Below, piece after piece: positions 7,134-45,506 of a stretch of DNA of 64,000 nt. Below the pieces are notes generated by a model that saw only the letters and a list, made by a program, of their open reading frames with translations, searched no databases and was not told the origin of the DNA. The DNA comes from Nocardioides bizhenqiangii (GTDB lineage Bacteria; Actinomycetota; Actinomycetes; Propionibacteriales; Nocardioidaceae). Numbering within the stretch: the first letter of the stretch is position 1; every line of letters starts with the position of its first letter. Location of the stretch: assembly GCF_034661235.1 (NCBI RefSeq), contig NZ_CP141059.1:2045501-2109500 (forward strand), written 5' to 3'. The position numbers and the translations under genes were made by a program.

Positions 7134-7172
7134 GGTGGTCGAGGACGTCGCGCAGCGACCGTCTCGAGACCC
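7134..7172. repeat. REP-like palindromic element (GGTGGTCGAG...CTCGAGACC)
   Basis: The element begins GGTGGTCGAG and ends CTCGAGACCC, with an inner hairpin GTCGC-GCA-GCGAC. It resembles dispersed palindromes common in Nocardioides-like genomes. Related sequence occurs at 59733-59775, and the element's first bases recur at the end of the MFS gene near 34243-34255. It separates pncB from the methyltransferase gene. Confidence 0.6.
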
Positions 7173-7185
7173 GTAGCCTTCGGAC

Positions 7186-8655
7186 GTGACCATCGAGCGG
7201 GAGCGGGCGGAGTCGCTCGCCACCGCCTACGAGGACCGGCTCGCCGTGGACCTGACCGACCGACGACGGGCCCGGGGTGCGTTCTACACGCCACCGGACC
7301 TCGTGGGCTGGATCCTCGACCACGCCCTGGCCCCGGCTACGACCCGGGTGCTCGACCCGGCCTGCGGGACCGGCCACTTCCTGGTCGCGGCGGCCCGACG
7401 GCTCGGCGACGTGCGGGCGGTGCACGGCTCGGACCTCGATGCCGAGGCGGTCCGGATCGCCCGGCTGCGGCTGCGGGCCGAGGACCCGACCGTCCCGCTC
7501 GAGGAGATCGAGTCCCGGGTGCGGGTCGCGGACGGGCTGACGGCCTGGGAGGACGCGACGTTCGACGCCGTCATCGGCAACCCCCCGTTCCTCGGCCAGC
7601 TCAAGCGCCGGACGGCGGGCCAGCGCGGCGGACTTGCCGCCTACACCGATACGAGCGCGGCGTTCCTGCACCGGGCGCTCGATCTCGTCGTGCAGGGCGG
7701 CACGGTCGCCCTGGTCCAGCCGCTCTCCGTGCTCGGTGCACGCGACGCCGGACCGGTGCGCGAGCGGGTCGCCGAGCTCGGGGCGGTGACCGACCTCTGG
7801 GTCTCGGACCGGCCCGTCTTCCGCGGCACGTCGGTGCTCGCTTGCGTGCCCGTCGTGCGGAGCGGAGCGAGCGGTGGACCCGGTCCGGACCAGTGGGGGC
7901 GGCTCGCCGCGCCGTCCTTCGGGATCCCCGCCGTCCAGCTGGCAGCAGGCGCGGGGCGGGTGGGCGACCTGGCCGTGTGCACGGCGGACTTCCGGGACCA
8001 GTACTACGGGCTGGTGCCGCACGTCCGCGACGGCGGCGCCGGCGCGCCGCTCATCACCAGCGGCCTCATCGAGCCCGCCGCCTGCGACTGGGGCAGCAGG
8101 CCGACCCGCTTCGCTCGGCAGCGGTACGACGCGCCGGTGGTCGACGTCGCAGCCGTCCGGGCGGGTCCGCTCGGCTCCTGGGTCGATGCCCGGCTGGTGC
8201 CGAAGGTGCTGGTGGCCGGTCAGGGGCGGGTGATCGAGGCGGTGGTCGACGAGCGCGGGGAGTGGCTGCCGTCGGTGCCGGTGGTGACCGTGGTCCCGCA
8301 CGACGCGAACGACCTGTGGCGGGTCCTCGCCGTGCTGCTGGCGCCGCCGGTCGTCGCGGACGCCGCCGCCCGCTACGTCGGCACCGGCCTCACGCCGGGC
8401 TCGGTCAAGGTGAGCGCGCGGCAGCTGGCAGGGCTGCCGCTGCCGGCGGACCAGGGGGCCTGGGCGGCCGGCGCGGAGCTCGCCCGGCGGGCGCAGCACG
8501 GGAGCGTCGCCGACCGGCCGGCCCTGCTGTCCGCGGTCGGCGAGGCGATGACGGCGGCGTACGGCGCCGGTGCGGCCTCGTTGGACTGGTGGCGCGCGCG
8601 GATCGGTCGCGGCGCCGATGAGTCTCCGGGGCGTCGCCGGTCGGCACCGGCATGA
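7186..8655 (+). CDS. Solitary N6-adenine DNA methyltransferase
   Basis: A 489-residue class I methyltransferase of the type I/IIG M-subunit kind. It carries the AdoMet motif DPACGTGHFLVAA (about residues 57-69), preceded by RGAFYTPPDLV, and the catalytic NPPF (about 132-135) that marks N6-adenine enzymes. The C-terminal ~250 residues probably form the target-recognition part. No restriction endonuclease, specificity subunit or BREX/DISARM partner is adjacent, so it looks orphan or epigenetic. Start: GTG 7186, with a -10-like TAGCCT ending six bases upstream, suggesting a leaderless mRNA. It overlaps the VOC gene by four bases. Confidence 0.85.
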   Translation: MTIERERAESLATAYEDRLAVDLTDRRRARGAFYTPPDLVGWILDHALAPATTRVLDPACGTGHFLVAAARRLGDVRAVHGSDLDAEAVRIARLRLRAEDPTVPLEEIESRVRVADGLTAWEDATFDAVIGNPPFLGQLKRRTAGQRGGLAAYTDTSAAFLHRALDLVVQGGTVALVQPLSVLGARDAGPVRERVAELGAVTDLWVSDRPVFRGTSVLACVPVVRSGASGGPGPDQWGRLAAPSFGIPAVQLAAGAGRVGDLAVCTADFRDQYYGLVPHVRDGGAGAPLITSGLIEPAACDWGSRPTRFARQRYDAPVVDVAAVRAGPLGSWVDARLVPKVLVAGQGRVIEAVVDERGEWLPSVPVVTVVPHDANDLWRVLAVLLAPPVVADAAARYVGTGLTPGSVKVSARQLAGLPLPADQGAWAAGAELARRAQHGSVADRPALLSAVGEAMTAAYGAGAASLDWWRARIGRGADESPGRRRSAPA

Positions 8656-9687: not shown

Positions 9688-10683
9688 GTGAGCGAAATCC
9701 TCTCGGACAGCACGGCGGCCACCGCGGGGGAGACTCCGCAGCCGGACGACGCGATGATCACCGCTCGCGGGCTGCGGAAGGAGTTCCGCCAGGCTTCCGG
9801 CGACACGTTCGAGGCGGTCAAGGGCATCGACCTCGACGTGCGCAAGGGTGAGGCGTTCGGCCTGCTCGGCCCCAACGGCGCCGGCAAGTCGTCGACCCTG
9901 CGGATGATCGCCTCGGTGTCGCCGATCAGCGGCGGCGAGCTGCGCATCCTCGGCATGGACCCGGCCGTCGACGGTCCGGCGATCCGCGGCCGGCTCGGCG
10001 TGTGCCCGCAGGAGGACAACCTCGACCAGGAGCTCAACGTCTTCGACAACCTCTACATCTACGGCCGCTACTTCGGGCTGCCGAAGCAGGTGGTGCGCGA
10101 GCGGGCCGGGGAGCTGCTGGAGTTCGCGAAGCTCACCGACAAGGCGAAGTCGAAGGTCGAGGAGCTCTCGGGCGGCATGAAGCGGCGGCTCACGATCGCC
10201 CGCTCGCTCATCAACCGCCCCGACCTGCTGCTGCTCGACGAGCCGACGACCGGCCTCGATCCGCAGGCCCGCCACGTGCTGTGGGACCAGCTGTTCCGGC
10301 TCAAGCACGCCGGAGTCACGCTCGTGCTGAGCACGCACTACATGGACGAGGCCGAGCAGCTGTGCGACCGGCTGGTCGTCATGGACAAGGGCGTGATCGT
10401 CGCCGAGGGTGCGCCGCTCGAACTGATCCGGATCCATTCGACCCGCGAGGTGGCCGAGCTGCGGTTCGGCGCCGGCGAGCACGCCGACCATGCCGAGGTG
10501 ATCGGCGACCTCGGCGAACGGGTCGAGGTGCTGCCCGACCGGCTGCTCGTCTACACCCACGACGGCGAGGAGGTCGTGGCCAAGACCCACGAACGCGGCC
10601 TGCAGCCGCTGGCCACGCTCGTGCGACGCTCCACGCTGGAGGACGTCTTCCTCCGCCTCACCGGCCGGACCCTGGTCGACTGA
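9688..10683 (+). CDS. ABC-2 type exporter, ATP-binding subunit
   Basis: A 331-residue ATPase with Walker A GPNGAGKSS, signature LSGGMKRR, Walker B LLLLDEP and a switch histidine in LSTHYMDEAE. The ~90-residue C-terminal extension matches the DrrA/NodI daunorubicin-resistance-like subgroup. It energises two ABC-2 permeases encoded directly downstream, probably exporting a lipid, polyketide or drug. GTG 9688 follows a -10-like TAGGAT by seven bases, which points to a leaderless transcript. Confidence 0.9.
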   Translation: MSEILSDSTAATAGETPQPDDAMITARGLRKEFRQASGDTFEAVKGIDLDVRKGEAFGLLGPNGAGKSSTLRMIASVSPISGGELRILGMDPAVDGPAIRGRLGVCPQEDNLDQELNVFDNLYIYGRYFGLPKQVVRERAGELLEFAKLTDKAKSKVEELSGGMKRRLTIARSLINRPDLLLLDEPTTGLDPQARHVLWDQLFRLKHAGVTLVLSTHYMDEAEQLCDRLVVMDKGVIVAEGAPLELIRIHSTREVAELRFGAGEHADHAEVIGDLGERVEVLPDRLLVYTHDGEEVVAKTHERGLQPLATLVRRSTLEDVFLRLTGRTLVD

Positions 10684-35528: not shown

Positions 35529-35574
35529 TTGAATGGCGCGAGCGTGTCGCAGATCGATGAGTGAGCCCGACACG
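35529..35574 (+). repeat. Repeat copy B and hairpin spanning the recX start
   Basis: 35529-35550 is 21/22 identical to the intergenic repeat at 9011-9032. CGTGTCG (35543-35549) can pair with CGACACG (35568-35574), placing the recX ATG (35557) in an 18-base loop. It may modulate recX translation relative to recA. Confidence 0.65.
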
Positions 35575-36081
35575 GAGCGGGACCTCGGACCGGAGCCGGA
35601 CCACGAGGCGGTCGCGCGCAAGATCCTGCTCGACCAGCTGACCGGTCAGGCGCGGAGCCGTCAGGAGCTCGCCGACCGGCTGGCCCGCCGCAACGTCCCC
35701 GACGAGGTGGCGGGCCGGCTGCTCGACCGGTTCGAGGAGGTCGGCCTGGTGGACGACGAGGCCTTCGCCCGGTCGTGGGTCGACAGCCGGCAGCGCACCC
35801 GCGGCCTGGCTCGACGGGCGCTGGCCCAGGAGCTGCGCCGCAAGGGCGTCGCCGACGAGACCGCCCGCGACGTGCTGGCAGAGGTCGACCCTGCCGACGA
35901 GGAGCAGGCGGCCAGGGCTCTGGTCCGCAAGAAGCTCCGCGGGCTGCGGGGCGTCGACGACACCGTCGCCGCCCGCCGCCTCGCGGGGTTGCTCGCGCGC
36001 AAGGGCTACCCGGCCGGCCTGGCCTACGCGGTGGTCAAGGACGAGCTCGCGGAAGTCGGCCGCGATGTTCCACTTGAATAG
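35557..36081 (+). CDS. recX: RecA regulator RecX
   Basis: A 174-residue helical-repeat protein that caps and inhibits RecA filaments. The three-helix repeats are visible: ARKILLDQLTGQARSRQELA, RLLDRFEEVGLVDDEAFARS, and LARRALAQELRRKGV. It lies 29 bp after recA and probably shares its mRNA. An alternative in-frame ATG at 35533 would add eight residues from the repeat; neither start has a good ribosome-binding site. In many actinobacteria recX is followed by miaB, but here a peptide-maturation locus follows. Confidence 0.92.
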   Translation: MSEPDTERDLGPEPDHEAVARKILLDQLTGQARSRQELADRLARRNVPDEVAGRLLDRFEEVGLVDDEAFARSWVDSRQRTRGLARRALAQELRRKGVADETARDVLAEVDPADEEQAARALVRKKLRGLRGVDDTVAARRLAGLLARKGYPAGLAYAVVKDELAEVGRDVPLE

Positions 36082-36131: not shown

Positions 36132-36179
36132 GACGTCGTGTGGCAACGTTCGTTGAAGAAGCGAACCGAGGGGATGATG

Positions 36180-36317
36180 ATGACCGAGCAGCATGAAGAG
36201 CGCAGGCCGTGGACTGAGCCACGCGTCGAGCCGCTCGGCACCGCAGCCGACGCCCGTAACCAGCTCTTCAGCACGCCCGACGGCCAGAACCTCGGTCACA
36301 AGAAGCTTCCTTCCTGA
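36180..36317 (+). CDS. Putative lasso-type RiPP precursor peptide
   Basis: A 45-residue peptide. Three ATGs run in tandem (36174, 36177, 36180); the third has the best spacing from GAGGGG (36168-36173). W11-x2-P14-x-V16-x3-G20 matches the lasso leader pattern Y-x2-P-x-L-x3-G that binds the RRE protein. After G20 the only acidic residues are D24 and D34. A ring to D34 would contain 7, 8 or 9 residues if the core began at Q28, N27 or R26; the usual Thr at core position -2 is absent. The peptide ends Leu-Pro-Ser, and a C-terminal serine is what paeninodin-type kinases phosphorylate. A cyclase gene follows 58 bp later. Cluster class is inferred; the exact core is unknown. Confidence 0.68.
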   Translation: MTEQHEERRPWTEPRVEPLGTAADARNQLFSTPDGQNLGHKKLPS

Positions 36318-36332
36318 CAGATGTCGGGGTGC

Positions 36333-36351
36333 TCCGTCGATTGACGACGGA
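36333..36351 (+). other. Hairpin between precursor and cyclase genes
   Basis: TCCGTCG (36333-36339) pairs perfectly with CGACGGA (36345-36351) around a five-base loop. In RiPP operons such hairpins often stabilise the precursor mRNA and limit read-through to the modifying enzyme. It lacks a T-tract. Confidence 0.5.
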
Positions 36352-36375
36352 CATCGCTGAGGATCGCGGGCGCCC

Positions 36376-38025
36376 ATGCCGTTCGAGCTGATCCACGGGC
36401 CGGGTCCTGCTGACGCCGATCAGACGCGTCGCTGGCTCGAAGAGGGATGCCGGTCGGCTGCGCCGATCCGCCAGGGGTTCGTCGCCGTACTGACCCACGC
36501 AGACGGGACGGTGCTCGCTGCGACGAGCAGTCGGTCCGAGATAGCGCTGTACTACTGGGTCGACGGCTCGGGCTTGCGATGGTCCCCAACCGTCCCCGGG
36601 CTCGTCCGGCAGCTCCGGGAGCCACCGCCGCTCGACGTGGGCAAGCTCGCGGACCTGATGGCGCTCCACGACGAGCCGGAGCGCACGGCTCTCGAGGGGG
36701 TCCGCCGGCTGCCGGTCGGCCACCGGCTCACCTGGCGGCAGGGCTGGTCCTCGCCGGAGACCGAGCGGTGGTTCACCCCCTCGGCCGAGGAAGACCGGTC
36801 GATCCGCCCGAAGGACGCCGCGGGTCTGCTGCGGGACGCGATCCGCCACGCGGTCACCGCGTCGCTGCCCTCATCCGGCCCGGTCGCAGCGACGCTGTCC
36901 GGCGGCCTCGACTCGTCGATGGTCGCGGGCACCGCGGCCTCGGTCCTGGCCGGCAGCGGAAGGACCGTGCACGCCCTCACCCACGTCCCCCTCCCCGGGA
37001 CCGCCGACCAGTCATCGACGTGGGAGGCCGATGACGGCCCCTACGCCCGGAGGATGGTCGACGAGATCCCCGGTCTGGAGTGGCACCCGATCGTGCACGA
37101 CGACCGGACCTCGCCGTTGACGACGTTGGCCGCGCTGTTCCCCACCTCGTGGTCGCCGGTGCTCAACCCGGCCAACATGGTGTGGCTGACGGCAGCGGCC
37201 GGCCGGGCTGCTGAGCTCGGCTCACCCCTCCTCCTCACCGGCGCGTCCGGCAACGCGCCGTTCTCGCGCGACCGGGACGGGCTCGTCCGCCAGCTCGTGA
37301 CCCGCGGACGACTCGACCGCCTGCCCGCCGAGGTGCTCCGCAGGCAGCGAGCAGGGGTGCCGGTCCACCGCGCGGCACGCAGCGTCCTCGCCGAAGCGGT
37401 CGGCGAGCGCACCCGCGAGCTGGTCCGGCAGCACCTTCTCCGGATCGGGCCGCCGCCGGCGTACCCCTCGTTCATCGAGGCGATGCCGCTCCGGCCGGAG
37501 ACGCTCAGTGACGCCGCCCGCCGCCGGCTGGCCGCCCTCGATGGATCGACCAGCCACAGCCAGGCGGACTGGATCGACTTCGTCCTCCGCGACGGGAGTC
37601 TCGCCACCGTGCCTCCTCCGGACGGCATCTGGTGGAGCGACCCGCTGTCGGATCCCGAGGTCGTCTCCCTCGCGCTCCGCCTGCCCCTGGAGGCCTGGCT
37701 CCAGGGCGGGTTGGATCGCGGCCTGGCCAGGGTCGCGGCCGAGGGGCTGGTGCCCGACCACATCCGCCTGCGTACGACGCGCGGAGCGCAGGCTGCCGAC
37801 GTGGGTCAATGGCTGCACGGCCGGGAGCAGGAGTACCGCGACCTGGTCGACCGGCTCCGCGCGTCGCCCGCCGCGTCGACGTTCATCGACCTCGACCGGG
37901 TCTCCCGGCAGCTGGAGAGCGGTCTGCCGTCCGGACGGGCGGCGGCGGCGTGGGAGGAGACGACCGGCCGGGCGCTCGGCCTCGGGCTCTTCGCCTCCTG
38001 GTACGAGGACGACGTGCTGCGCTGA
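36376..38025 (+). CDS. Asparagine-synthase-like lasso peptide cyclase (C protein)
   Basis: A 549-residue AsnB-family protein. Residues about 1-125 form a degenerate glutaminase-like domain without the N-terminal catalytic Cys2 (it begins MPFEL), so it cannot use glutamine. Residues about 145-545 form the ATP-pyrophosphatase synthetase domain with SGGLDSS at 175-181. Lasso cyclases of this build adenylate an Asp/Glu side chain and close a macrolactam with the core N-terminus. It lies directly downstream of the small precursor. No B1 (PqqD-like RRE) or B2 (transglutaminase-like peptidase) gene lies between recX and the phosphoribosyltransferase. A different amide-forming reaction is possible. 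Confidence 0.82.
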   Translation: MPFELIHGPGPADADQTRRWLEEGCRSAAPIRQGFVAVLTHADGTVLAATSSRSEIALYYWVDGSGLRWSPTVPGLVRQLREPPPLDVGKLADLMALHDEPERTALEGVRRLPVGHRLTWRQGWSSPETERWFTPSAEEDRSIRPKDAAGLLRDAIRHAVTASLPSSGPVAATLSGGLDSSMVAGTAASVLAGSGRTVHALTHVPLPGTADQSSTWEADDGPYARRMVDEIPGLEWHPIVHDDRTSPLTTLAALFPTSWSPVLNPANMVWLTAAAGRAAELGSPLLLTGASGNAPFSRDRDGLVRQLVTRGRLDRLPAEVLRRQRAGVPVHRAARSVLAEAVGERTRELVRQHLLRIGPPPAYPSFIEAMPLRPETLSDAARRRLAALDGSTSHSQADWIDFVLRDGSLATVPPPDGIWWSDPLSDPEVVSLALRLPLEAWLQGGLDRGLARVAAEGLVPDHIRLRTTRGAQAADVGQWLHGREQEYRDLVDRLRASPAASTFIDLDRVSRQLESGLPSGRAAAAWEETTGRALGLGLFASWYEDDVLR

Positions 38026-38862
38026 CTACAGGTCTCTGATCGCGGCCTCGACAGCGTCGGCGACGGCATCGACCGACGCACCATGCTGCGGTCGGACCAC
38101 CTCGATGACGGGGACGTGCGTGAGGAGCTCGCTCAGCCAGCTGAGGAAGGGCGCACGGTACGGCGGCAGCTGGCACAGCTCGGCCGAGTCACTCAGCACC
38201 GCGAGCATGGGCAGCGCCTCCAGCAGCGGCTGACGCCGCACGGCGACGTGGTCGTGGTCGCTGAGATCGACCCGGACGATGGCCGCGAGCGGCCGGGGCG
38301 TGGTGTCCGACGCGACGGCGTACACGCGCTTGGACGCGCCGGGCAGCTCGCGTCCGATGGCGGGATCCACCCCGAGCCGGCTGGCGAGCTCGTCGCTCGC
38401 GTGCAGCGGCCGCGGGTACGGGTGCGCCGTGACGCCGTCGGGGCCGGCGGTGGCCCCGACGATGTCGTCGCAGACAAAGCTCCAGCCGCGCTGCGCCAGC
38501 GCGACGGCGGTGGTGGTCTTCCCGACCGTGCCCGGCCCGGTGATCGCGACCGCGCGGCCGTCCGGCGACTCCACGAGCGTGGCGTGGAGGGTGAACCGGC
38601 CGCGCTGGAGGAGCAACAGGCGCAGCGCGATCGAGTACACGAGGAAGTCGTAGGCCGGCCGCTGCTCGGGCGGTACGTCGATGACCACCTCCGTGCCGTG
38701 GGCGACGTAGAGCGATGCGTCGTCCTGACGGACCAGCGCGCGGTCGTGGTCGGCCACGAAGTACCCGGTGTCGACCGCGGCCTCCCAGGGCGGCGGGGTC
38801 GGCCCCTCGACCACCGGACAGCCGAGCACCGTGGTGGTGGGACCGGGCGGGACTCCGAGCAT
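38026..38862 (-). CDS. HPr-kinase-like protein (putative RiPP serine kinase)
   Basis: A 278-residue protein similar to the C-terminal kinase half of HprK. The Walker A loop is GPGTVGKTTT (109-118), with FTLHATLV just before (H93) and the Asp pair CDDIVGA (D132-D133) after; the PTS-type HprK N-terminal domain is absent. Such proteins accompany asparagine-synthase-like cyclases in many clusters, and the paeninodin kinase phosphorylates the C-terminal serine of its lasso precursor. Here the precursor ends in serine. The gene converges on the cyclase with zero spacing. ATG 38862 follows a -10-like TACCCT by six bases (leaderless); an in-frame GTG at 38868 is the alternative. The substrate is inferred. 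Confidence 0.78.
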   Translation of the reverse strand: MLGVPPGPTTTVLGCPVVEGPTPPPWEAAVDTGYFVADHDRALVRQDDASLYVAHGTEVVIDVPPEQRPAYDFLVYSIALRLLLLQRGRFTLHATLVESPDGRAVAITGPGTVGKTTTAVALAQRGWSFVCDDIVGATAGPDGVTAHPYPRPLHASDELASRLGVDPAIGRELPGASKRVYAVASDTTPRPLAAIVRVDLSDHDHVAVRRQPLLEALPMLAVLSDSAELCQLPPYRAPFLSWLSELLTHVPVIEVVRPQHGASVDAVADAVEAAIRDL

Positions 38863-38891
38863 GGGCACAGGGTAGTGACGGGCCAGGTGAC

Positions 38892-39422
38892 ATGATCGGC
38901 TGCGTGACCACAGAGCCCACCGGCGGCGACGCGCCGGCCCGCGAGATCCTCAGCTACGAGCTCTTCGGCACCGCGGTGCGCGAGCTCGCCCAGCAGGTCG
39001 TCGACGACGGCTACGAGCCCGACATCGTCCTCGCGATCGCTCGCGGCGGCCTCGGCCTGGCGATGGGCATGGGCTACGCCCTCGACGTGAAGAACCTGAG
39101 CGCTGTGAACGTCGAGTTCTACACGGGCGTCGACGAGCGGCTCGACGTGCCGATGATGCTGCCGCCCACGCCGGCTGCCATCGACCTCACCGGGATGAAG
39201 GTCCTCATCGTCGACGACGTGGCCGACACCGGCAAGACGCTGGAGGTGGTCCGGGACTTCGTCGCCGACCACGTGGCCGAGGCCCGCACCGCAGTGATCT
39301 ACGAGAAGCCTTGGACCGTGATCCACGCCGAGTACGTCTGGCGCCGCACCGAGCGCTGGATCGACTTCCCCTGGTCGTCGACCCCGCCGCTGGTCGACCG
39401 CCGTGGGGGCCTCGCGCACTGA
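38892..39422 (+). CDS. Phosphoribosyltransferase-family protein
   Basis: A 176-residue type I PRTase-fold protein. The PRPP-binding motif is VLIVDDVADTGKT, preceded by VLAIARGGLGLAMGMGYALD. The C-terminal ERWIDFPW segment is the same as in xanthine/hypoxanthine-type PRTases of actinobacteria (Gpt-like). It probably salvages a purine base or acts as a regulator. ATG 38892 or GTG 38904 are both possible starts; AGGTGA lies at 38885-38890. It is divergent from the kinase-like gene and probably not part of the peptide locus. Confidence 0.82.
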   Translation: MIGCVTTEPTGGDAPAREILSYELFGTAVRELAQQVVDDGYEPDIVLAIARGGLGLAMGMGYALDVKNLSAVNVEFYTGVDERLDVPMMLPPTPAAIDLTGMKVLIVDDVADTGKTLEVVRDFVADHVAEARTAVIYEKPWTVIHAEYVWRRTERWIDFPWSSTPPLVDRRGGLAH

Positions 39423-42075: not shown

Positions 42076-42819
42076 TCAGACAGGCACCAGCTCGACGGCG
42101 CCGACCGCGTAGCGCGCCAGCACGGTGCGGGCGATCTCCGGGTGGGCACCGAGCGGCTCGGACACGGCGACCGCGCCCGCCTCGAGGGCGAGCTCGGTCG
42201 CGTGGTCGAGGAGGCGACCCGGCGCGAGGAAGAGCGACGCGACGGCGATGTGCCGACGGCCCTCCGCGCGGAACGCCCGCACCGCCTCACCGGTCGCCGG
42301 CGGGGCGGCGGCGGCGTATGCCGCGGTCACCGGCAGCTTGTGGTGCGTGCCCCAGACCCGGGCGAGCCGGGCGACCGCCTGGTTGGCCAGGGGGTCCGAC
42401 GAGCCGGCGGCCGCGAGCACGAGCGCGTCGAGCTCCCGGACCCGGGCGCCGGCCAGAGCCGTGCGCATCCGCTCGTCGAGCACCTCGAGGAACCGCGGTT
42501 CGAGACCGAGCACGTCGGTCGCGCGGATCTGCAGGCCGGGGTGGCGGGTCGTCGCCTCGGCGATCTGCTCGGGTACGTCGACGCGCGCGTGGAACGCCTC
42601 GTTGAGCAGGAGGGGTACGACGACGATCTCCTCGTAGCCCGCGCGGACCAGCTTGTCGACGACGGTCTGGAAGCTGGGCTTGGCGAGCTCGAGGAACGCC
42701 TTCTCGATGCGCAGGTCAGGACGGAGCGCCTTGACCTCGTTGACGAGGGCGGTCACGGTCGCGGCGGAGCGGGGGTCCCGGCTGCCATGAGCCAGGGCCA
42801 CCAGTGCAGGAGCGGCCAT
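42076..42819 (-). CDS. Sirohydrochlorin chelatase (CbiX/SirB-like)
   Basis: A 247-residue chelatase with two tandem CbiX-like halves (ALVALAHGSRDPRS at the start, VVPLLLNEAFHARVDVPEQI; second half VLAAAGSSDPLAN and ASLFLAPGRLLDH). The first-half histidine (AHGS) and H in EAFHARVD are the usual metal ligands. Next to sulfite reductase it most likely inserts Fe2+ into sirohydrochlorin to make siroheme. It lies 58 bp after the APS reductase gene. Cobalt insertion is the alternative. Confidence 0.87.
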   Translation of the reverse strand: MAAPALVALAHGSRDPRSAATVTALVNEVKALRPDLRIEKAFLELAKPSFQTVVDKLVRAGYEEIVVVPLLLNEAFHARVDVPEQIAEATTRHPGLQIRATDVLGLEPRFLEVLDERMRTALAGARVRELDALVLAAAGSSDPLANQAVARLARVWGTHHKLPVTAAYAAAAPPATGEAVRAFRAEGRRHIAVASLFLAPGRLLDHATELALEAGAVAVSEPLGAHPEIARTVLARYAVGAVELVPV

Positions 42820-42877
42820 CAGCAGCTGTCTCCTCTCATGTGGTGCGTGGGAAGGGGGAGTGTCGTGGGGGAAGGGA

Positions 42878-43621
42878 TCACGAGTGGATTCCGCACTCGG
42901 TCTTGTTGGTGCCGGCCCAGCGCCCGCTGCGAGGGTCCTCGCCCGGGGCTACTCGGCGCGTGCACGGCCAGCACCCGATCGAGGGATAGCCGTCGTACAC
43001 CAGGGGATTCACGAGGACTCCGTTGTCCGCGATGTAACGCTCCACCTGCTCGTCGGTCCAACGAGCCAGCGGAGAAACCTTGACCTTGCCCTTCTTGGCG
43101 TCCCAGCCGATGACCGGCGCGATCACCCGGTTGTGGGTCTCGGCGCGGCGTAGGCCGGTGGCCCAGGCGTCGTACCCCGACAGCGACTCCTGCAGGGGCT
43201 TCACCTTGCGCAACTGGCAGCAGAGGTCGGGGTCACGCTTGTAGAGGTCCTTGCCGTACTCGGCATCCTGCTCGGCCACGCTCTGCACGGGCGTGATCGT
43301 GAGCAGGTTGACCGGCAACGTGTGCTTGACCGCGTCGGCGGTGCCGACCGTCTCGGCGAAGTGGTAGCCGGTGTCGAGGAAGACGACGTCGATGCCGGGA
43401 ACGACCGTCGACGCGAGGTGCGAGAGCACCGCGTCGCCCATCGACGACGTCACGCAGAAGCGCTCGCCGAACGTGGCGGCCGCCCACTCGATGATCACCT
43501 CGGCCGGAGCCAGCTCGAGCTCGGCACCCCAGTGCGACACGATCTCGCGCAGCTCCTCGGGTGACCGACCGGCGGTCTCTGCGCCGCGGGCGAGCCTGGC
43601 CTTGGCGGTGGAGACGCTCAT
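42878..43621 (-). CDS. cysH: Adenylyl-sulfate (APS) reductase, iron-sulfur type
   Basis: It reduces adenylyl sulfate to sulfite with thioredoxin. The 247-residue protein has the PP-loop start (FCVTSSMGDAVLSHLAS) and FLDTGYHFAET. Two cysteine pairs, LCCQLRK and GCWPCTRRV, identify the 4Fe-4S APS-specific class rather than the PAPS-specific class. The catalytic cysteine is in the C-terminal TECGIH. It overlaps the zinc-ribbon gene by four bases. Confidence 0.94.
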   Translation of the reverse strand: MSVSTAKARLARGAETAGRSPEELREIVSHWGAELELAPAEVIIEWAAATFGERFCVTSSMGDAVLSHLASTVVPGIDVVFLDTGYHFAETVGTADAVKHTLPVNLLTITPVQSVAEQDAEYGKDLYKRDPDLCCQLRKVKPLQESLSGYDAWATGLRRAETHNRVIAPVIGWDAKKGKVKVSPLARWTDEQVERYIADNGVLVNPLVYDGYPSIGCWPCTRRVAPGEDPRSGRWAGTNKTECGIHS

Positions 43622-43776
43622 GCCCGGTCACCACCCGGACGCACCATTCCGAGCATCTTCAGCGAGAACGCGCGCAGGCACGACCGGCACTCCCACGAGC
43701 CGTGTGCGGCCTCGTGCGGCCAGAGGTCGCCCTCGCCGCAGAAGGGGCAGTGGAACGGCACTGCGCGCTCGCTCAT
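43618..43776 (-). CDS. Small zinc-ribbon protein of the sulfite reductase operon
   Basis: A 52-residue protein with two knuckles, HCPFCGEGDLWPHE and WECRSCLRAFSLK, so four cysteines can hold one zinc. It sits between sulfite reductase and APS reductase with 4-bp overlaps on both sides. A comparable tiny protein occupies this position in other actinobacterial sulfur operons. Function unknown; a metallochaperone or assembly factor for the Fe-S/siroheme enzymes is a reasonable guess. Confidence 0.85.
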   Translation of the reverse strand: MSERAVPFHCPFCGEGDLWPHEAAHGSWECRSCLRAFSLKMLGMVRPGGDRA

Positions 43777-45506
43777 AGCGAGGACTCCAGGACCTTGTCG
43801 CCGCGCAGTGCCTCGTCGTCGGCCCGGGCGGCCCAGTCGGCGAACCGCTCGTCGTCCTTGCGGTCGGCGAGGTAGTTGGTCACCACGTTGCTGATGTAGT
43901 CGTCGAGCCCGGAGCTGGTCACCTTGTGGGCGCGCAGCTTGCGGCCGAAGTTGGCGCCGAGCCCGGTGGCACCGCCGAGGTGCACCTGGAAGCCCTCGAC
44001 CTGGTTGCCGTCGTCGTCGAGGACGAGCTGGCCCTTGAGGCCGATGTCGGCGACCTGGGTCCGGGCGCAGGCGTTGGGGCAGCCGTTGACGTTGACCGTG
44101 ATCCCTGAAGGCACTTGCTTGTCGAGGTCGGGGAACCGTCGCTCGAGCTCGGCGACCAGGTCGCGGGCGCGGTCCTTGGTGTCGACGATCGCCAGCTTGC
44201 AGAACTCGATGCCGGTGCAGGCCATCGTGTTGCGCCGCCAGTTCGACGGCCTGGCCGAGAGGCCGATCTCGTCGAGCCGGTCGACCAGTGCGTCGACCTG
44301 CTCCCCGTCGACGCCGAGCAGCACGATCTTCTGGTACGGCGTGAGCCGCGCGCCGGCGACGCCGTGCTCCTCGAGCAGGTCGGCCAGCTCCACCAGCAGC
44401 GTTCCGGAGACCCGGCCCACGGTCGGCGCGACGCCGACGTAGAACTTGCCGTCCTTCTGGGCGTGGACGCCGATGTGGTCGCGGTGGCCGACGGGCGAGG
44501 GCGGCGACGGGTTGGTGACCAGCTCCTTGCCGAGGTACTCCTTCTCGAGGACCTCGCGGAACTTCTCGACACCCCAGTCGGCGACCAGGAACTTGAGCCG
44601 GGCGCGGGAGCGGAGCCGCCGGTAGCCGTAGTCGCGGAAGATCGACGCCACGCCCTCCCAGACGTCCGGGACGTCGTCGAGCGGGATCCAGACACCGAGC
44701 TTCTGGGCGAGCATCGGGTTGGTCGAGAGGCCGCCGCCGACCCACACGTCGAAGCCCGGCCCGAGCTCGGGGTGGACGGTGCCGACGAAGGAGACGTCGT
44801 TGGTCTCCGGGCACACGTCGTGGCTCGGGTGACCGGTCAGCGCGGTCTTGAACTTGCGGGGGAAGTTCGAGAAGTCCTTGTTGCCGAGGTAGCGGCGCTC
44901 GATCTCCTCGAGCGCGGAGGTACCGTCGATGATCTCGTCGGCGGCGACGCCGGCGACGGGGGAGCCGAGGAACGGCCGCGGTGAGTCGCCGCAGGCCTCG
45001 AGCGAGTGCAGGCCGACCTCGTCCAGGCGCTCCCAGATCGTGGGGACGTCCTTGACGTCGATCCAGTGGTACTGGATGTTCTGCCGGTCGGTGACGTCGG
45101 CCGTGTCGCGGGCGAAGTCGACGCCGATCCGGCCGAGCGTCCGGACGGCGTCGGGGGAGAGCAGCTTGCCGTCGGAGCGGACCCGCAGCATGAAGTAGCG
45201 GTCGTCCAGCTCCTCCTCCTCGAGAGCTCCGGTCTTGCCGCCGTCGATCCCGGGCTTGCGCTGGGTGTAGAGGCCCATCCACCGGAACCGGCCGCGGAGG
45301 TCGGCGGGGTCGATCGAGTCGAAGCCGCGCTTGGAGTAGATGTGGAGGATCCGGTCGCGGACGTTGAGGGCGTCGTCGTTCTTCTTCGACTCCTCGTTCT
45401 TGTTGAGCGGCTCGCGGTAGCCGAACGCCCACTGTCCCTCGGCGCGGCGCGGTCGCGGCACGTCGGTGTGACGTGGCGGTTGGGAGTCGAAGCGCAGGTC
45501 AGACAT
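43773..45506 (-). CDS. sir: Assimilatory ferredoxin-dependent sulfite reductase
   Basis: It reduces sulfite to sulfide with six electrons from ferredoxin. The 577-residue hemoprotein has the duplicated nitrite/sulfite reductase architecture. The 4Fe-4S/siroheme cysteines are in ACTGIEFCKLA and GCPNACARTQ, and siroheme-contacting RDTADVTDRQNIQYHWI lies near residue 133. It is first in the operon sir, zinc ribbon, cysH, chelatase. An AAGGAC ribosome-binding site precedes the start. Nitrite reductase is the alternative, disfavoured by the cysH linkage. Confidence 0.93.
   Translation of the reverse strand: MSDLRFDSQPPRHTDVPRPRRAEGQWAFGYREPLNKNEESKKNDDALNVRDRILHIYSKRGFDSIDPADLRGRFRWMGLYTQRKPGIDGGKTGALEEEELDDRYFMLRVRSDGKLLSPDAVRTLGRIGVDFARDTADVTDRQNIQYHWIDVKDVPTIWERLDEVGLHSLEACGDSPRPFLGSPVAGVAADEIIDGTSALEEIERRYLGNKDFSNFPRKFKTALTGHPSHDVCPETNDVSFVGTVHPELGPGFDVWVGGGLSTNPMLAQKLGVWIPLDDVPDVWEGVASIFRDYGYRRLRSRARLKFLVADWGVEKFREVLEKEYLGKELVTNPSPPSPVGHRDHIGVHAQKDGKFYVGVAPTVGRVSGTLLVELADLLEEHGVAGARLTPYQKIVLLGVDGEQVDALVDRLDEIGLSARPSNWRRNTMACTGIEFCKLAIVDTKDRARDLVAELERRFPDLDKQVPSGITVNVNGCPNACARTQVADIGLKGQLVLDDDGNQVEGFQVHLGGATGLGANFGRKLRAHKVTSSGLDDYISNVVTNYLADRKDDERFADWAARADDEALRGDKVLESSL

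Follow-up and report, generated by a model that had tools for sequence, protein, structure and literature searches.

The actinobacterium Nocardioides bizhenqiangii probably carries a lasso peptide pathway of hybrid ancestry whose genes are divided between two chromosomal loci. One locus lies next to recX in a window of 64,000 nucleotides (positions 2045501-2109500 of a single-contig genome of 4,546,893 bases, or 4.55 Mb). It encodes a precursor peptide (A), a lasso-type macrolactam cyclase (C) and an HprK-like precursor kinase (K). The other, resident locus is found at 3.83 Mb, 1.75 Mb away from A-C-K, and encodes a PqqD-type recognition element (RRE; B1) for ribosomally synthesized and post-translationally modified peptides (RiPPs), a leader peptidase (B2), an exporter (D) and a nucleotidyltransferase (N). 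Judging from sequence comparison, a foreign A-C-K set would be served in trans by the resident B1, B2, D and N. This arrangement is best read as a variant of the lasso pathway and not as a new class.

The precursor gene (36180..36317 of the window, plus strand) codes for 45 amino acids and has GAGGGG 6 bases 5' of its ATG at 36180; additional in-frame ATGs are at 36174 and 36177. Its leader carries the motif W-x2-P-x-V-x3-G, here W-TE-P-R-V-EPL-G. The cyclase gene (36376..38025, plus strand, 549 amino acids) encodes SGGLDSS and holds the only Asn_synthase match of the genome at E<=0.001 (PF00733, 87.7 bits). The structural model of C has a fold of the AsnB/beta-lactam-synthetase type (1jgt) and, in this model, the front of the glutaminase-like domain is missing. 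No solved lasso cyclase was among the Foldseek/VIA matches listed for the model, an absence that is uninformative. The wider cyclase family (P0001-P0058, mostly 500-600 amino acids) contains PF00733 and lacks the GATase_7 domain PF13537. The kinase gene (38026..38868, minus strand) converges on C so that the two stops abut. It is recognized by weak profile matches and by kept residues; the His, GxxxxGK[ST] and DD are found in all five K homologues. The frames of A, C, K, B1 and B2 are open, with catalytic and nucleotide-binding residues kept. A first-pass annotation of the window had described a 45-codon gene with a strong ribosome-binding site, an Asp and a C-terminal Ser, an AsnB-like protein and a convergent HprK-like kinase with zero spacing, and all of this is borne out; four relatives in which the genes are clustered support its lasso-type assignment of the three. 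The hairpin that it placed between A and C (36318..36375, plus strand) can indeed fold (minimum free energy -27.1 kcal/mol for 36316-36378) and is weak, barely above chance, as 8 of 200 shuffles were equally good (z -1.9).

The same annotation had found neither an RRE nor a leader peptidase. This stands for the window, where ten tblastn queries, five of them B1 and five B2, gave no match at E<=0.01, and the idea of hidden B genes there was rejected. It does not stand for the genome, which at E<=0.001 contains one PqqD match (PF05402, 3835167-3835358, minus strand; 7156-7428 of the extracted stretch L002) and, adjacent to it, one Transglut_core3 match (PF13471, 3835462-3835800, minus strand; L002 7439-7876). 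Among the options raised by the annotation, trans-encoded B proteins are favoured by this pair. B2 clears the NCBIfam lasso_biosyn_B2 cut-off (59.4 vs 33), and B1 matches the solved lasso B1 chains 9x90 (3.9e-10) and TbiB1 (5.7e-7). N (PF14907, 117 bits) and the ABC exporter D (PF00005) are on the plus strand of L002 and B1-B2 on the minus strand. Onward of B1-B2 are what we take to be DUF4395, thioredoxin-like, DUF1416 and sulfurtransferase genes. A motif scan of L002 found no precursor-like open reading frame (ORF), and tblastn for A, C and K gave no trace or remnant (best E 0.03), by which pseudogene remnants of these genes at the resident locus were rejected. The genes A, B1, B2 and C, which usually, not obligatorily, stand together, are thus in two loci here.

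With the leader Trp as anchor, five precursors, that of N. bizhenqiangii and those of the relatives G115, G184, G212 and G323, align with no gap. Each has a leader motif of the form [YW]xxPx[LV], [DE]-A at +13/+14, an Asp or Glu at +23 and a final Ser. A common acidic column arises in 3 of 100,000 shuffles of the five. The G212 and G323 precursors have a Gly at +17, as do, by eye, two Aeromicrobium precursors; because of this Gly, core position 1 is placed at W+17. The acceptor would therefore be at core position 7, within the 7-9 expected of lasso peptides if the core starts at W+17, and the ring would have seven residues. For N. bizhenqiangii this predicts a leader M1-N27, the core QLFSTPDGQNLGHKKLPS, a Q1-D7 ring and a C-terminal Ser, with cut site and ring size both following from this presumed register. 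Xanthomonins are lasso peptides with a ring of this size. A ring of seven residues has been reported (PMC4675943). The residue at -2 in this register is R, Q, E, Q and Q (N. bizhenqiangii, G115, G184, G212 and G323), and the usual Thr is absent, in agreement with the first-pass annotation, which had seen no Thr at a plausible -2 position. Thr(-2) is termed conserved, and Ile(-2) is a validated exception (PMC10368454). The non-Thr residue is a subfamily trait and does not speak for decay of the N. bizhenqiangii locus. The N. bizhenqiangii precursor has zero matches among NCBIfam models at E<=1, NF033524 (lasso_PadeA_fam) included, and likewise none in the Pfam library; the G115 precursor reaches 11 bits against NF033524, which has a cut-off of 27. 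An HprK-like kinase together with a C-terminal Ser, as in the paeninodin family, is found in all five. In the Aeromicrobium clusters (L076, L088) the leader is of the Y type and the acceptor Asp is at +24 (counted by eye), which differs from +23.

The cyclase and its B proteins are rare and occur together. At E<=1e-25 the cyclase is present in 4 of 215 same-genus genomes, N. bizhenqiangii among the 215. A family-wide set of 341 genomes added one further genome, and 391 genomes from the order added none. The same four of the 215 genomes contain close B2 homologues (58-99% identity, E<=2.3e-40), and seven others contain weaker ones (36-49%, E 3e-14 to 3e-6). Apart from N. bizhenqiangii and G115, 33 members of an initial set of 147 same-genus genomes gave weak cyclase matches of at most 49.1 bits, which are taken as other Asn_synthase proteins. 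Among named genomes, the window cyclase as sole query found no match. All seven gene kinds are clustered in G115, G184, G212 and G323. After turning, G115 has N-D on the plus strand, K-B1-B2 on the minus strand and A-C on the plus strand, followed by DUF4395, thioredoxin, DUF1416 and sulfurtransferase genes (minus strand), and the cluster sits at a site equivalent to that of the B1-B2-D-N genes of N. bizhenqiangii; two contig ends interrupt its cyclase, and its N is partial. G184 and G212 share the order N-D-A-C (plus) and K-B1-B2 (minus), in which A-C-K forms one block between D and B1. G323 (L038/L123) has N-D (plus), B1-B2 (minus), C (plus) and K (minus); the ORF of its precursor is flanked by C and K. 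The comparison of relatives proposed in the first-pass annotation thus finds the small ORF in all four that were read, together with the other genes. Its options of a minimal system, of a peptide that needs no cleavage and of a new amide-forming RiPP class are not supported, as B1 and B2 are no more than about 7 kb from the cyclase in these four relatives and also in the more distant L040.

The two halves of the pathway have conflicting histories. N. bizhenqiangii and G115 are 76% identical in D, 76% in B1 and 67% in B2, but only 47% in C and 45% in K. G115 is 53-58% identical to G184 and G212 in C and K. In the five-taxon tree of D+B1+B2, N. bizhenqiangii joins G115 with 100/100 support and the constraint {G115,G184,G212} is rejected (p 7e-5). 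In the tree of C+K, {G115,G184,G212} has 100/100 support, N. bizhenqiangii is with G323, and the pairing with G115 is rejected (p 1.6e-4). D and C each reject the alternative topology singly (p 2.5e-4 and p 3.6e-4). A quick tree of 56 cyclases places the own clade (P0001-P0005) outside a 30-row clade that contains G115, G184, G212, MH1 and the other contig-matched cyclases, with G323 further out; constraining N. bizhenqiangii to G115 costs 263 lnL (p 0.031). In a quick tree of 51 B2 proteins, the own clade (P0111-P0115) shares a group of 16 rows with G115 and MH1 (SH-aLRT 86). Thirteen C-B2 pairs were compared: that of N. bizhenqiangii, nine paired by genome name or by contigs of equal length, and three read at one locus. 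The C identity of N. bizhenqiangii is far under the expectation from its B2 identity (mean z -2.56, the sole outlier of 13; the other 12 range from -0.33 to 0.60). Because the trees conflict, A-C-K is read as a foreign cassette that joined resident B1-B2-D-N genes, the resident A-C-K having been lost.

Several observations weigh against a split, hybrid lasso pathway. C is below both lasso cyclase cut-offs (NF033535, 73.9 vs 525; NF033561, 74.2 vs 300), K is below those of Hpr_kinase_C (PF07475, 2e-5, 24.6 bits vs 33.3 in Pfam) and HprK_rel_A (6e-6), and B1 is below that of its closest model, the Bacillota-type lasso PqqD (62 vs 80). No adjacent precursor was recognized at the more distant cyclases L040, L041 and L042. 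Among the five genomes read, the halves are apart in N. bizhenqiangii alone. The conflict on the resident side rests mainly on D: the C topology is not rejected by B1+B2 alone (p 0.12) or in a 13-taxon B2 test (p 0.372), and the pairing with G115 is not rejected by K alone (p 0.07). The B1+B2 and K values are compatible with a single history, as under the main rival, relocation alone, by which the resident A-C-K left its place between D and B1 and moved to recX, giving a pathway that is split and not hybrid. The A-C-K block of G184 and G212 is contiguous at that very place, and its removal yields the D-B1-B2 order of N. bizhenqiangii. The GC content of A-C-K (0.730) is near that of the window (0.718), by which a foreign base composition was rejected. 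We nevertheless consider relocation rather unlikely, as the C and C+K trees and the 56 cyclases set N. bizhenqiangii apart from {G115,G184,G212}, and its C is not merely fast-evolving, being nearer to G323 (50%) than that of G115 is (41%).

The two gene sets may instead be the remains of two decayed clusters with no joint product, in keeping with their physical separation and with a differing ancestry through which B1 and B2 may fail to recognize the foreign leader. This is improbable given the open frames and kept catalytic and nucleotide-binding residues, a precursor that retains leader motif, acceptor and C-terminal Ser, the lack of A/C/K fragments at the resident place and of B1/B2 fragments in the window, and a hint that the split is common to several species. 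The first-pass option of a degenerate locus likewise loses most of its force on the open frames and key residues and keeps a small share of the probability. Very improbable is a cyclase that needs no B proteins, acts on a precursor left uncut or cut by the host, and makes a new amide-type RiPP. It would account for the lack of B genes next to C, and a title cited in PMC13381572 speaks of pseudomycoidin without leader and leader peptidase. Against it, B1 and B2 accompany the cyclase in the four relatives whose clusters were readable, and of 215 genomes the four with the cyclase are also the four with a close B2.

If the two loci do form one hybrid pathway, B1 would bind the W-x2-P-x-V leader. 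K would phosphorylate the C-terminal Ser of the precursor before cleavage, by analogy to PadeK and PsmN (PMC9266682). B2 would then cleave ahead of Gln28 (N|Q), and C would adenylate core Asp7 and close the seven-residue ring around the tail. The phospho-Ser may then be decorated by N, and D would export the product, predicted from the sequence to be a threaded macrolactam. BsfB1 accelerates its kinase and assists the peptidase (PMC10368454), and for this reason K at recX may likewise depend on the distant B1. A relaxed specificity is described for RREs from outside the Bacillota, FusB1 among them (PMC13381572), which by analogy would favour cross-recognition of the foreign leader.

The closest known systems are the phosphorylated lasso peptides of the paeninodin/pseudomycoidin type from Bacillota, which share the W-type leader and a kinase with a conserved C-terminal Ser; the pseudomycoidin cluster also has a nucleotidyltransferase (PMC9266682, PMC13381572). 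The present system differs from these in its actinobacterial host, a precursor without NCBIfam match, an Arg at -2 and two loci of different ancestry. The bsf cluster of Bradymonas sediminis has A, B1, B2, C, D, K and N and a non-Thr -2 residue, but this residue is Ile, its kinase acts on core Ser3 and its genes are clustered (PMC10368454). Citrulassins also rely on an unlinked gene, a deiminase encoded elsewhere; this is a tailoring enzyme, whereas in N. bizhenqiangii B1 and B2 are unlinked (PMC12971885). The clustered relatives share the cyclase family, precursor architecture, kinase, B1, B2, D and N, but have all genes in one place. For lanthipeptides, unlinked proteases are known (PMC8960859). 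Among the titles and abstract openings listed from the openly licensed literature, none describes a lasso pathway with B1/B2 unlinked from the cyclase. A working hybrid would mean that the RRE and peptidase of one cluster have already been combined in nature with a precursor and cyclase of foreign origin; the modularity of lasso enzymes would be directly testable, and a B1/B2 pair for W-type leaders with R/Q/E(-2) would be available for engineering. Lasso genes are commonly mined via co-localisation of A, B and C, by which a split pathway would score as incomplete and be missed.

The A-C-K genes lie between recX (35569..36081, plus strand; RecX_HTH1-3) and a phosphoribosyltransferase gene (PRT; 38904..39422, plus strand; its homologues carry PF00156), in an interval of 2.8 kb. 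Of 24 same-genus relatives whose recX locus was compared, 16 have a PRT gene 3' of recX; the gap is estimated at -22 to 257 bases in 15 of these and at 1159 in one. GNAT or PPK2 is the first match after recX in 7 of the 24, and one has neither. None of the 24 loci has a C or K match, and five further loci outside the family have none of PRT, GNAT and PPK2. The cyclase relatives of 81-83% and the B2 relatives of 80-88% identity form small clades of similar depth. The longest contigs with cyclases of >=81% (4951, 153496 and 3203 bases) and with B2 proteins of 79-88% (1053, 25607, 3455, 898 and 1108 bases) do not coincide, while other C-B2 pairs do coincide on contigs (2528, 4126, 955847, 308582, 533107, 7942, 10732 and 5812 bases). 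This hints that several species share the split, with the proviso that small contigs may merely be cut. The 153,496-base contig was not in the best 120 of 8000 PRT matches, so a shared recX site is conjectural. The split and the hybrid ancestry suggest that pathway halves may be swapped like plug-in parts. A more general model, to which we give somewhat less than an even chance, is that A-C-K is an exchangeable cassette that plugs in trans into a resident B1/B2/D/N platform, that several species share this arrangement, that the platform may serve successive cassettes, and that it cuts leaders with Arg, Gln or Glu at -2 in place of Thr.

Alignment A1 comprises 80 loci, of which L038-L042 are closest (35-50% in the best segment); of the other 75, L076 and L088 were examined. 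At the distant L040, C has K, B1, B2 and N within 6 kb. The contig of L042 carries C and K, gives no B1/B2 match and stops about 0.7 kb past K; its B genes are probably cut off, since B1 of L040 starts about 0.9 kb past K. The L041 stretch spans 3.3 kb only. A same-genus contig of 2.3 kb (L128, G196:C313, 412-2299) carries a B2 (38%) and an exporter (37%); the G196 genome, an assembly that is 69% complete, has no cyclase match at E<=1e-25. G115, G212 and G323 have a sulfurtransferase or DUF4395 gene no more than about 6 kb from the cluster; on the G184 stretch none was found. In several Nocardioidaceae, lasso genes with two quite different cyclase types are near a sulfurtransferase-DUF1416-thioredoxin-DUF4395 neighbourhood (L002 7876-9965; L036 1107-3207; L121 17539-19501; L123 1-3270; L076 12863-15151; L088 12889-15178), which is perhaps a recurrent lasso site. 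Elsewhere in the window, an ABC-transporter ATPase region (9706-10338) is akin to lasso exporters (28-35%) only as an ABC protein. The genes at 42076-45506 (minus strand) are presumably those of assimilatory sulfate reduction (CbiX-like, PAPS-reductase-like and sulfite-reductase-like).

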